From: Baffinella frigidus
Taxonomy: Eukaryota > Cryptophyceae > Cryptomonadales > Baffinellaceae
Assembly (NCBI GenBank): GCA_026770585.1
Contig: MU646621.1
Span: forward strand, 258,683-281,112
DNA length: 22,430 nucleotides
Reading direction: 5' to 3'
Shown: piece after piece, positions 361 to 22,430 of the stretch
How the letters are laid out: each line of letters begins with the position of its first letter
How positions within the stretch are numbered: position 1 is the stretch's first letter
Position numbers and translations under genes: made by a program
The notes under the pieces: model-generated
What the model was told of the DNA's origin: nothing
Databases searched by the model: none
Seen by the model: only the letters and a program-made list of their open reading frames with translations

Positions 361-407
361 CCCCCCCCCTCGGCCTCGATGAAGGTGAATGGTCCAGGTT
401 TCAGGTT

Positions 408-632
408 TCAGGGTTTAGGGTTTAGGGTTTAGGGTTTGGGGTTGAGGGTTTAGGGTTGAGGGTTTAGGGTTTAGGGTTTAGGGTTCGGGGTTTAGGGTTT
501 AGGGTATAGGGTTTAGGGTTTAGGGTTTAGGGTTTAGGGTTTAGGGTTTAGGGTTTAGGGTTCAGGGTGTACGACGAGGGCTTTTAGGGTTTAGGGTTTA
601 GGGTTTAGGGTTTAGGGTTTAGGGTTTGGGAG
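408..632 (+). repeat. Interstitial telomere-like array (TTTAGGG)n
   Basis: Long runs of TTTAGGG are mixed with single-base variants (TTGAGGG, TTCGGGG, TATAGGG). The cleanest stretches are about 513-562 and 585-628. A non-repeat scrap (GTACGACGAGGGC) sits near 568-583. TTTAGGG is the telomere unit of plants and many protists. The array is internal and directly borders a minus-strand exon-like module at 637, so it may be intronic on the minus strand, where it reads CCCTAAA. Confidence 0.95.
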
Positions 633-636
633 GTAC

Positions 637-682
637 CCCCCGGCGGCCTCGATGAGAAGCTTGCCGGCGCGGCGTTCGCTAC
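637..682 (-). CDS. Exon-like module, LLIEAAGG family, copy 2
   Basis: On the minus strand this reads AERRAGKLLIEAAGG and is followed by GTACCTCCCAAACCC, a plausible 5' splice site leading into a CCCTAAA-type spacer. The sister copy at 903-982 shares LLIEAAGG and the following CCTCCCAAACCC, so the match covers the exon end and the start of the intron. The upstream side runs into the 28-bp tandem array, and no acceptor is clear. Function is not recognised. It may be a live exon or a relic. Confidence 0.45.
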
Positions 683-794
683 CGTACACCAAACAGCGTT
701 CTTCGAAGACCGTACACCAAACAGCGTTCTTCGAAGACCGTACACCAAACAGCGTTCTTCGAAGATCGTACACCAAACAGCGTTCTTCGAAGAT
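683..794. repeat. 28-bp tandem repeat, four units
   Basis: Four head-to-tail units of exactly 28 bp begin CGTACACCAAACAGCG and end in TTCTTCGAAGAC or GAT. Units 1-2 and 3-4 differ only at the last base. Each contains a near-palindrome around TTCGAA. There are no unique spacers, so it is not a CRISPR. The next bases (CGCGGTACTAA at about 809-819) resemble the sequence after the 22-bp array at 8839-8920, which suggests a shared flank. Confidence 0.95.
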
Positions 795-902
795 CGGTCC
801 ATTAATTTTCGCGGTACTAATTAACAACCGCGCGGTACAAAGACATGTTATTCACCACAATTTCGATGAGATTCAATTATCTCTCTAGGGTTTGGGAGGC
901 AC

Positions 903-982
903 CCTCCGGCGGCCTCGATGAGGAGCTGGTTGGTCGGCGCGGTGTTTGCTTTCTCCATCTTCTTCCGGTTGTACGCCGCCAC
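903..982 (-). CDS. Exon-like module VAAYNRKKMEKANTAPTNQ + LLIEAAGG
   Basis: The minus-strand 3' splice site is CCCTAG and is supplied by the telomere-like spacer itself. The open frame then reads VAAYNRKKMEKANTAPTNQ followed by LLIEAAGG, and ends before GTGCCTCCC. The 80-bp length assumes the GTGCCT donor. The lysine/glutamate-rich start is coiled-coil-like. LLIEAAGG recurs at 637-682 and, decayed, near 365-385. The copy is intact and both borders are plausible. The parent protein is not recognised. Confidence 0.55.
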
Positions 983-1260
983 CTAGGGTTAAGGGTTTAG
1001 GGTTTCGGGTTTCGGGTTTCGGGTTTCGGGTTTAGGGTGTAGGGTGTAGGGTGTAGGGTTTAGGGTTTGGGGTTTGGGGTTTAGGGTTTAGGGTTTAGGG
1101 TTTAGGGTTTAGGGTTCATGGTACGTGGGTTGGGGGCTGGGGTTAAGTGTGTAGTGCTCAGGGTTTAGTGTTTAGGGGTGAGGAGGTAGGGTTTAGGGGT
1201 TAGGGGTCAGAGGTCAGGGGTTAGGGTTTAGGGTTTAGGGGCTAGGGTTTAGGGGTTAGG
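983..1260 (+). repeat. Degenerate telomere-like spacer with variant sub-arrays
   Basis: Variants are locally homogenised: (TTTCGGG)n around 1003-1031, (GTGTAGGG)n around 1032-1060, then (TTTAGGG)n around 1080-1115, followed by looser TTAGGGG/GTTAGGG text. Such local blocks indicate slippage or unequal exchange after the repeats became interstitial. The stretch separates two minus-strand modules (903-982 and 1268-1306), so it would be one intron if they belong to the same gene. Similar text continues at 1314-1355. Confidence 0.85.
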
Positions 1261-1267
1261 GCAGTAC

Positions 1268-1306
1268 CTTCCAGACGTCGCCCTTCTTGTCGCAGTCGTC
1301 CAACAC
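1268..1306 (-). CDS. 39-bp exon-like module VLDDCDKKGDVWK
   Basis: On the minus strand the order is AACCCGAATCAG, then 13 whole codons (VLDDCDKKGDVWK), then GTACTGCC. The exon is phase 0 and divisible by three. The end GDVWK followed by GT resembles the end of the large exon at 18615-18932 (GDKWYK followed by GT). The acidic DxCDKKGD core recalls a calcium-loop motif, but it is too short to call an EF-hand. It is likely one exon of a multi-exon gene. Confidence 0.55.
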
Positions 1307-1356
1307 CTGATTCGGGTTTAGGGTTTAGGGGTCAGGGTTTAGGGTTTAGGGTTTCG

Positions 1357-1700
1357 GCCGGAGGACTGAGAACGGTTCTGTGTGTGTGCCCATGTTCGCC
1401 CTGTCGCCTGTTTTAGTCGTAAAACTCCTGGAAAGTTGGGTAGTTTCTCCTACGGCATTGCCTAGGACCTCATACCGTAGGCCAAAATCCCAGGATATTT
1501 TGGTCATAGGAGCCCTATCACCTGTATCGCAACAGCCCTGGTTGTTCGGCTGGTTCATGTGCCGCAGGCTCTATCCCCCCCCCACCCGGAAGCGACCTTC
1601 ATCTGCGGAGGCTCATCCTTGCAAAACTGTGTTCATGTGCAGGCGATGAGGGGTGATTTAATGCGGAAATCGTTTTAATTTTAATTCAAACCCATTGGAT
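1357..1700. other. Stretch without recognised gene
   Basis: After the last TTTAGGG units the sequence becomes mixed composition. Weak ORFs of 70-89 codons exist on both strands but show no motif, splice context or duplicated copy that would favour one. It ends in AT-rich sequence leading to the small element at 1702-1770. Nothing is assigned here. Confidence 0.4.
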
Positions 1701-1701
1701 T

Positions 1702-1770
1702 CAATAAAAATTACTACACGGATGCTTTAATATTACTAGTAAAACTCATTGTGTGTAGTAAATTTTATTG
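1702..1770. mobile_element. Mini foldback, ACTACAC family, copy 1
   Basis: The 18-bp ends CAATAAAAATTACTACAC and their inverse match at 17 of 18 positions and enclose about 33 bp. The same TIR core (AACGAAAATTACTACAC type) bounds elements at 2357-2417, 3046-3116 and 6825-6903, and half copies lie near 268-284, 7869-7885 and 22324-22333. At 61-79 bp these are among the smallest MITE-like elements one could expect. No target duplication is evident at this copy. Confidence 0.75.
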
Positions 1771-1837
1771 GAACGTTTTAGATTAAAACCGTTTCCCTAT
1801 GAGATTGGTCAGAGGCGAGCGGCGAGAGGGGGCAGGC

Positions 1838-21396: not shown

Positions 21397-21569
21397 CCAC
21401 GCAAGAGTGTAGGGCAGAGTGGCCTGCAGGAGAAATAGCCAGATCTGGCTATGTTCAAATGTTCATAAGTCAACATTCTCCCCAGAGAAAAATCGAAATT
21501 TCGGGAAGTTGATACAAAGTCCGTGTGAACTGACTTGTTTTCCCAGGTCTGTGTTACACTCTTGCGTGG
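21397..21569. mobile_element. Foldback-ended 173-bp element, CCACGCAAGAGTGTA
   Basis: Perfect 15-bp terminal inverted repeats CCACGCAAGAGTGTA. The interior contains the palindrome AGCCAGATCTGGCT (21437-21450). A minus-strand frame of 99 codons (MASPPRKSVTQTWENKSVHT...) spans it without a known domain and is probably fortuitous. Confidence 0.65.
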
Positions 21570-21608
21570 TGGGCTCGCCATAAAGGCATCTTAGTTACCC
21601 TTTTGTAC

Positions 21609-21675
21609 TGGACTTTCTGCTCCAAACGTGTTGTCTAGAGAGCCCAGTTTTACCCAGGCAGAGCAAGAAAGTCCA
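21609..21675. repeat. Stem-loop TGGACTTTCTGCTC / GAGCAAGAAAGTCCA
   Basis: 14-15-bp arms with one extra base, 38-base loop. It could be a small foldback element. From 21676 to 21812 I see no feature. Confidence 0.65.
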
Positions 21676-21812
21676 CTTTTTCGGCGTTGGTTCTCCAATG
21701 TACATGGCGTCCGTTTCGGCCTTAACGCCGGAAGCTCACGTAAGGGAGGAACTTAAGTCGGCTTCTAGCAATGGACTTGGAGCTCCAAACAAATTCATTT
21801 TTTTCCCCTTCA

Positions 21813-21935
21813 CACCCTAAACCCTAAACCCTAAACCCTCAACCTCACACCCTAAACCCTAAACCCTAAACCCTAAACCCTAAACCCTAAACCCTAAACC
21901 CTGAACCCTAACCTCCAAACCCTACGCCCCGACCC
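21813..21935 (-). repeat. Telomere-like array in CCCTAAA polarity
   Basis: Runs of CCCTAAA with CTCAACC, CTGAACC and CTCCAAACC variants; the cleanest part is about 21850-21900. On the plus strand it ends in GACCCCCAAAGATCAG, which serves as an acceptor-like edge for the next module. Confidence 0.95.
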
Positions 21936-21946
21936 CCAAAGATCAG

Positions 21947-21962
21947 GCGAGTAAGCTCAACC
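21947..21962 (+). pseudogene. Scrap of the ASKLTGNWKKVKE module
   Basis: GCGAGTAAGCTCAACC after CCCAAAGATCAG repeats the acceptor and first four codons of the exon at 22030-22068, then dissolves into CCCTCAACCCTGAACC spacer. Confidence 0.55.
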
Positions 21963-22029
21963 TCGCACCCTCAACCCTGAACCCTGAACCCTAACCTCCA
22001 AAACCTCAACCCCGACCCCCAAAGAGCAG

Positions 22030-22068
22030 GCGAGCAAGCTCACGGGGAACTGGAAGAAGGTCAAGGAG
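22030..22068 (+). CDS. 39-bp plus-strand exon ASKLTGNWKKVKE
   Basis: Plus strand: GACCCCCAAAGAGCAG as acceptor, 13 codons ASKLTGNWKKVKE, then GTGAATCTCC as donor. Phase 0 and 39 bp, like modules on the minus strand further left. Its surrounding spacers read CCCTAAA on the same strand, keeping the rule of C-rich sense-strand introns. Basic and helical; not recognised. Confidence 0.6.
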
Positions 22069-22196
22069 GTGAATCTCCTACCCCCACTTTTGAGCAACGC
22101 TCTTTGGGAAATCCCTAGACCCTAATCCCTAAACCCTAAATTCAAACCCGAAACTCGAAACCCTTAACTCTAAAACCAAGCCCCTAAACCCTACAG

Positions 22197-22223
22197 GTGA
22201 ACCAGGAGGAGGCAATGCTTCAG
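22197..22223 (+). CDS. Exon-like start VNQEEAMLQ
   Basis: CCCCTAAACCCTACAG is a spacer-derived acceptor, followed by VNQEEAMLQ. The right border is unclear because no GT follows CAG at 22223. It may extend as PGLTLLTH before a stop. Confidence 0.4.
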
Positions 22224-22239
22224 CCCGGCCTCACTCTAC

Positions 22240-22323
22240 TAACTCACTAAACCCCAGACCCTAACCTGGTTCTGGTTTAGGGTCTAAAACCTAAACCCCT
22301 AAACCCCGAACCCTACTCTTTTC
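22240..22323 (-). repeat. Degenerate telomere-like spacer with a small inversion
   Basis: CTAACCTGGTTCTGGTTTAG + GGTCTAAAACC shows a local switch from C-rich to G-rich and back, forming a short inverted repeat. Other units are CCCTAAA and CCCCGAA variants. Confidence 0.7.
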
Positions 22324-22335
22324 TGGCAACGAACC

Positions 22336-22430
22336 CCCTAAACCCTAAACCCTAAACCCTAAACCCTAAACCCTAAACCCTAAACCCTAAACCCTAAACC
22401 CTAAACCCTAAACCCTAAACCCTAAACCCT
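22336..22430 (-). repeat. Perfect terminal CCCTAAA array (about 13.6 units)
   Basis: 95 bp of error-free CCCTAAA run to the window edge. It is the only perfect array of this length in the window. It is preceded by TTCTGGCAACGAA, the outer end of the ACTACAC element family. A natural telomere at a right-hand end should read TTTAGGG on the plus strand, so this array faces the wrong way for a chromosome terminus here. Confidence 0.95.

Follow-up and report, generated by a model that had tools for sequence, protein, structure and literature searches.

The stretch analysed here, termed the window, comprises 22,430 bases (258683-281112) of the 444,683-base Baffinella frigidus contig MU646621.1, from an assembly of 382,457,362 bases in 1364 contigs. 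It starts 258 kb inside this contig of a eukaryote-like assembly and holds two gene models on opposite strands together with 20 arrays of a telomere-like heptad, most of them within introns and C-rich in the sense direction of the gene (Table 1). Fifteen arrays read TTTAGGG on the plus strand, all below 20.4 kb, and five read CCCTAAA, namely 12952-13086 and four beyond 20.77 kb; the window contains 81 exact TTTAGGG and 30 exact CCCTAAA heptads. We refer to such TTTAGGG-type arrays at interior sites as interstitial telomeric sequences (ITSs), a label that rests on the unit type and not on the host's own telomere repeat. They are not a true terminal telomere, as the window is interior and the tract at its right edge reads CCCTAAA on the plus strand. 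The pure part of this tract does not mark a contig end. Neither a tRNA nor an Rfam match at the gathering cut-off was found in the window.

Gene models and exon copies

Exons were chosen by eye from open stretches bounded by AG and by GT or GC, and were tested afterwards without using the arrays. With leave-one-out codon usage the own frame ranked top of six in 16 of 16 exons, a test that is not fully independent because the exons had been picked by eye. Codon choice over 17 exons is biased towards AAG for lysine (AAG:AAA 33:4), GAG for glutamate (GAG:GAA 36:2) and AAC for asparagine (AAC:AAT 12:0), with pooled GC of 0.65, 0.44 and 0.83 at codon positions 1, 2 and 3. A scan with the full codon model called 25 segments, training exons included and a few places on both strands, against a mean of 0.25 and a maximum of 2 in 20 simulated runs, and a model trained solely on other loci recovers several window exons on the same strand. 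Thirteen of the 17 exons follow AG, ten precede GT and four precede GC, the rest being a putative start or unfixed ends; with their borders thus chosen by eye, the model introns would have the GT/GC...AG borders of U2-type spliceosomal introns. Where the two borders could be fixed, the introns are in phase 0, most acceptors read AG/G (slash, splice border), and GC donors occur in 4/17 exons.

In the plus-strand gene the frame is maintained across three joins, the own frame is the best of six, and the four exon lengths are all divisible by three. It begins at 20,042 and not, as first proposed for the plus-strand part, after 20.77 kb. Its first exon (20042-20146) encodes MARLLLILLLAIANVPADAFLELPF, with a signal-peptide-like start, and the phenylalanine after an ADA site is presumably reminiscent of the leader peptides that target proteins to the plastid in algae with complex red plastids. 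The four window proteins submitted matched no Pfam family above cut-off, and PDB matches were set aside as low-complexity linkers or weak. The minus-gene protein has no relative in the viral contigs searched, and no homologue was found for the minus gene model.

Several of the splice-flanked modules listed in a first-pass annotation, made from the sequence alone, are incomplete copies of exons nearby, and some of these are broken or inverted. Besides the copies in Table 1, the exons PDWRE and VEVGAEEQ likewise have partial copies among these modules. Pooled differences between copies and exons number 8, 13 and 22 at the first, second and third codon position, and some copies may accordingly be real duplicated exons. 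We therefore dropped the view that all are decayed pseudo-exons; only gapped, inverted or stop-bearing copies are clearly broken.

Table 1. Coordinates within the window; sense refers to the surrounding gene model
Feature	Position (strand)	Array	Remarks
Minus-strand gene model	914-19795 (-)		13 exons in census; based on codon usage and AG / GT-GC borders; several exon ends uncertain
Its exons, 5' part	19742-19795, 19454-19552, 18615-18932, 18385-18432, 17442-17495, 10763-10846, 8746-8805 (-)		
Its exons, 3' part	8323-8346, 7270-7314, 6138-6260, 3870-3959, 1268-1306, 914-982 (-)		
Plus-strand gene model	20042-22223 (+)		exons 20042-20146, 20550-20627, 22030-22068, 22197-22223
Intron	983-1267 (-)	98% telomere-like array, C-rich in sense	GTACTG...CCCTAG
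Intron	18433-18614 (-)	97% telomere-like array, C-rich in sense	GTGAAA...CAACCAG
Intron	22069-22196 (+)	66% array, C-rich in sense	ends CCCTACAG
Array	1311-1357 (-)	C-rich in sense	abuts acceptor of exon 1268-1306
Arrays	8125-8273, 8587-8744 (-)	C-rich in sense	second begins 1 nt past donor of exon 8746-8805
Arrays	9380-9529, 10275-10408 (-)	C-rich in sense	
Arrays, one intron	17755-17790, 17821-17870, 17993-18090, 18165-18376 (-)	C-rich in sense	
Arrays	20774-20828, 21814-22023 (+)	C-rich in sense	second ends 6 nt before acceptor of exon 22030-22068
Array, exception	12952-13086 (+)	CCCCAAA type, G-rich in sense	mid-intron in 6.6-kb minus intron
Array, exception	20309-20369 (-)	TTTAGGG on plus, G-rich in sense	mid-intron in intron 1 of plus gene
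Array	396-630 (-)	TTTAGGG on plus	outside bounded introns
Array	22287-22430 (+)	CCCTAAA, pure from 22336	window's right edge, outside bounded introns
Partial copies (four) of AMYTAESLK exon	9231-9259, 9536-9586, 10242-10269, 10415-10460 (-)		within 9225-10460, between arrays
Partial copies (three) of ALQDAQ exon	17703-17736, 17870-17909, 18090-18129 (-)		between arrays
Inverted copies of KYQTLEDY exon	4445-4540 (two gaps), 4699-4735 (+)		
Inverted repeats/palindromes	2297-3174, 3240-3442, 9613-9769, 10990-11167, 14589-14711, 16258-17305, 20988-21300		
GT/GA microsatellite and G-rich 24-nt minisatellite	15582-15871, 4919-5108		inside minus gene

Array polarity and acceptor coupling

Eighteen of the 20 arrays lie within model introns, and 16 of these are C-rich in sense, (CCCTAAA)n; the two further arrays lie outside model introns. 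Arrays occur in 11 of the 15 introns between model exons, nine of which hold C-rich arrays only, one both kinds and one a G-rich array only, and every array that comes within 10 nt of a model splice site is C-rich in sense (7/7). The rule put forward in the first-pass annotation, that spacer polarity tracks the coding strand, thus holds for 16/18 intronic arrays and fails for two G-sense arrays in mid-intron. Its view of the spacers as introns stands in that the arrays sit within model introns, two of which consist of array almost throughout, and needs qualifying for the modules that proved to be partial exon copies.

The same annotation had proposed that the spacers themselves supply acceptors, and the sequences quoted for this are present, or nearly so. 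Array-borne acceptors are predicted near 983 (CCCTAG/GTGGCG), at 18433 (CCCTCAACCAG/GTGCCAG) and at 22196 (CCCTACAG/GTGAACC), while two further quoted ones, at 17.91 kb (CCTCAACAG/GCGTTAC) and 8586 (CCCTAAATCAG/GTTGAAG), stand at exon copies. Short direct repeats are seen at both intron borders, for instance AG/GCGAG in the plus gene. At 18558-18626 a short array has TGGTACAAGGTG, the final bases of exon 18615-18932 plus the donor, on either side of it, reminiscent of a target-site duplication.

Kinesin genes allowed the coding strand to be anchored by homology. Motor exons were located by Pfam (45 matches), and three gene stretches were analysed (L076, L077 and L078). At the standard threshold every one of the 24 arrays has its C-rich strand as sense (6, 4 and 14, respectively); 18 of them are between exon hits, and the other 6 either overlap an outermost hit or are located beyond it. 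In L076 the array 4249-4433 runs into a predicted 3' splice site, ACCAG/GCAACACATCCCGTACCGCGACTCGAAG, of the exon encoding HIPYRDSKLT, a string that we take to be a kinesin motif, the family assignment itself coming from Pfam. In L078 an array extends to CCCTGCACCAG/GTGATTC.

Across the genome, (TTTAGGG)3 has 25,832 + 27,288 = 53,120 matches and the reversed pattern 13 + 14, overlapping matches being counted. The acceptor-like motif GCAGGTG occurs within 25 nt 3' of the CCCTAAA strand (C-strand) 107 + 70 = 177 times, and within 25 nt 3' of the TTTAGGG strand (G-strand) 21 + 17 = 38 times. A scrambled control, GACGGTG, occurs equally often after both (12 + 13 = 25 after the C-strand, 15 + 10 = 25 after the G-strand). 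The coupling of the acceptor to the C-strand gives a Fisher p of 5.5e-6 on raw counts, which are inflated by overlapping matches; distinct acceptors number 78 among the first 100 C-strand matches listed and 33 among the 38 G-strand matches.

A codon-model census was taken at 18 other loci, 17 of them around array places on one contig (C1) plus L073. Loci L065-L069, L071, L072, L074 and L075, which consist entirely of N, and L070, nearly so, were dropped, and 13 other C1 stretches are partly N; the overlap of L063 and L051 was masked, and L040-L047, which lie inside L048 and L049, were not counted separately. Assigned by the nearest coding segment, arrays are C-sense rather than G-sense by 53:19, 41:14, 38:11, 29:6, 28:3 and 21:2, depending on threshold and distance, and those with both flanks on the same strand by 13:2, 7:2, 12:2, 7:2, 7:2 and 4:2. 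With each locus left out of training the count is 49:18, and by majority 14 loci are C-sense, 2 G-sense, 1 tied and 1 without an assigned array. The predicted strand is backed by Pfam in 4 of 20 submitted segments (above cut-off for ankyrin and poly-A polymerase head, below it for WD40 and TTL); the remaining 16 of 20 had no Pfam match at E 0.01. Equal numbers of TTTAGGG- and CCCTAAA-sense introns, which the first-pass annotation had named as speaking against its rule, were not seen where sense could be assigned, be it in the window, in the kinesin genes or in the census.

A proposed splicing-tolerated orientation and alternatives

We put the probability that the arrays are ITSs kept in the orientation that splicing tolerates at roughly 0.55, and it is the kinesin and acceptor results that carry this reading. 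TTTAGGG-type telomeric repeats would have entered nuclear genes on many occasions, probably as filler during the repair of DNA breaks, which may also account for the partial copies of neighbouring exons, both direct and inverted. Within transcribed genes mainly one array orientation would then have been retained. As RNA, a CCCTAAA-sense repeat is without GU or AG, so that arrays of any length would introduce no spurious splice sites, and a minor alteration of the array edge could create a YAG acceptor (CCCTAG, CCCTACAG). A TTTAGGG-sense repeat has GU, AG and a G-run every 7 nt, and near a splice site it would cause mis-splicing and then be lost.

The dinucleotide counts point the same way. Eighteen window arrays (2306 nt) have 28 AG and 14 GT on the C-strand and 259 AG and 318 GT on the G-strand, in a count that treats 20309-20369 on the C-strand though it is G-rich in plus-gene sense and omits 3677-3700 and 12952-13086; kinesin arrays have 37 AG and 8 GT on the sense strand and 180 and 337 on the antisense strand. 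Because of this asymmetry a long array would be nearly silent to the spliceosome in C-sense and a run of false sites in G-sense, and we regard this as what most simply explains the polarity together with the acceptor coupling. Splicing at the array borders, selection as the cause of the polarity, and break repair or telomerase as the source of the repeats are what we infer from these patterns. The microsatellite and minisatellite of the minus gene resemble the telomere-like arrays in that AG and GT are absent or nearly so in sense.

A bolder version holds that telomeric repeats become, or stay, splice-competent introns only where the C-rich strand is sense, since that strand lacks GU and AG and easily provides a 3' splice site, and that telomerase or break repair helped to make many introns of this genome; we offer it tentatively and would not bet on it at even odds.

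Several observations weigh against a splicing-tolerated orientation. In the window there are the two G-sense arrays in mid-intron (Table 1), and the codon model from other loci assigns a GC-rich stretch at 18.7-18.9 kb to the plus strand; owing to this one stretch the window census becomes 8 C : 7 G. Elsewhere, the majority is G-sense at loci L060 and L063, and a lower threshold brings up two weak opposite tracts in the kinesin genes (L076:632-649 and L078:225-251). Plain adjacency of arrays to donors and acceptors showed no significant difference in the 18 other loci and the window. Genome-wide the donor pattern AGGTGMG has 71 raw matches 5' of the C-strand against 91 of the G-strand, or 61 against 68 distinct sites counted by hand, which is no overall difference. 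Split after seeing the data, AGGTGCG is found 47:20 (C:G; p = 0.0013) and AGGTGAG 14:48, and 30 of the latter 48 G-strand sites read AGGTGAGGG, resembling a repeat variant. Avoidance of AG among the repeat variants was also dropped as evidence of selection. A>G changes over the three A positions number 22:3:5 in window arrays (Fisher p 0.09 by runs and 0.33 by arrays) and elsewhere 77:14:11 in C-sense, 8:0:2 in G-sense and 84:7:3 in unassigned arrays, and because AG variants are equally rare in G-sense and unassigned arrays, their rarity is no sign of selection. At the C1 loci and L073, variants are concentrated on the first A of CCCTAAA (CCCTGAA, CCCTCAA), beyond the other two A positions, in C-sense and unassigned arrays alike, which is perhaps a trace of array formation.

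The alternative that survives best is a bias of insertion, without selection, whereby telomeric repeats are inserted into transcribed genes in a single orientation, for instance through telomerase extending a free 3' end on the template strand, or through C-rich telomeric RNA copied into breaks. It would fit the polarity in mid-intron of kinesin genes, where splice sites are far, as well as a variant spectrum without sign of splicing selection; we nevertheless think it unlikely, as by itself it does not predict the excess of the acceptor motif after the C-strand. The same excess is not predicted if G-sense arrays are lost during transcription through G-quadruplexes or R-loops, and not through splicing. 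Such avoidance of G-rich RNA, which seems to us distinctly improbable, does predict the observed polarity, and it has in its favour that the two window exceptions, G-rich in sense, are far from splice sites.

Shared orientation could also come by descent, if each gene had received one ancestral array that was multiplied by local duplication. Exon fragments adjoining arrays are indeed duplicated. At the kinesin locus L078, the stretch 114-227 copies exon 374-493 and meets a stop. Where flanks are readable, window included, 10 of 55 arrays are spanned by direct duplications, compared with 26 of 300 random gaps (p = 0.048), and 0 of 55 by inverted ones, compared with 7 of 300; as a sign of break repair these duplications are at best weak. 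Descent within a gene is however insufficient because unrelated genes on both strands agree, the rule applying to both window genes, to the three kinesin genes and at most other loci, and we give this alternative little credence. Misassembled chromosome ends or a decayed subtelomeric locus might be suspected from the telomere-type repeats, tandem repeats and long palindromes that fill the window, but its interior position, the genome-wide abundance of (TTTAGGG)3 and arrays abutting homology-defined kinesin exons make such an artefact highly improbable.

Apart from the arrays, the window has 38 long inverted repeats, the 25 longest of which were inspected, with repeated palindromes resembling miniature transposons; two of the palindrome patterns had no match in viral or genome contigs. 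Telomere patterns in viral contigs were found in 39 contig stretches, with a coverage by long open reading frames of 32-100% except for one short piece. Five phage-like IMG/VR contigs (L001, L002, L005, L006 and L008) carry pure CCCTAAA arrays between genes (e.g., L006:10178-10290), and in the five phage-like stretches examined CCCTAAA is on the coding strand, directly 5' of an ATG.

Comparison with known systems

Among the open-licence papers listed by our searches, judged by title and opening of the abstract and with subscription papers mostly outside, we found none on telomere-type introns or on this strand rule. Telomere-type repeats inside chromosomes are also known as short ITSs at double-strand breaks in human and horse, and these insertions carry duplications and inversions of their flanks (PMC7215372), as the exon copies suggest for the arrays described here. 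According to the sections of that paper used here, 31% of human ITSs are in introns, compatible with random insertion, and none in exons. Unlike these, the arrays in our window fill whole introns, hold one sense and run into acceptors. An effect of ITSs on splicing was left open there and named as worth testing (PMC7215372); the acceptor-tied strand rule together with the 53,120 (TTTAGGG)3 matches makes it testable by counting. Array orientation may in addition offer gene finders an inexpensive hint as to which strand is coding in genomes of this kind.

Dinoflagellates are reported to have TTTAGGG telomeres (TTTGGGG in Amoebophrya A120), GC as well as GT donors, and unusual introns (PMC11453091, PMC7789003). 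The TTTAGGG unit and both donor types recur here, and telomeric introns are not described in the parts of those papers that we drew on. Introns flanked by short direct repeats (PMC11782384) are likewise comparable, with AG/G(T/C) at both borders here; the abstract of that paper makes a general claim on introns and is silent on telomeric content.

There is also a parallel in form with introners, in which a repeated sequence also makes up the whole intron up to the splice borders (PMC9860276, PMC7789003). Introners belong to families of similar, non-low-complexity sequence reaching both borders; the window introns, unlike these, share a low-complexity heptad array, and no element structure was seen. 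As described in the portion of PMC9860276 considered here, the broad introner survey removed low-complexity intron families, so that array-filled introns would be uncounted in it, and the arrays may represent a possible source of introns that this survey excluded by design.

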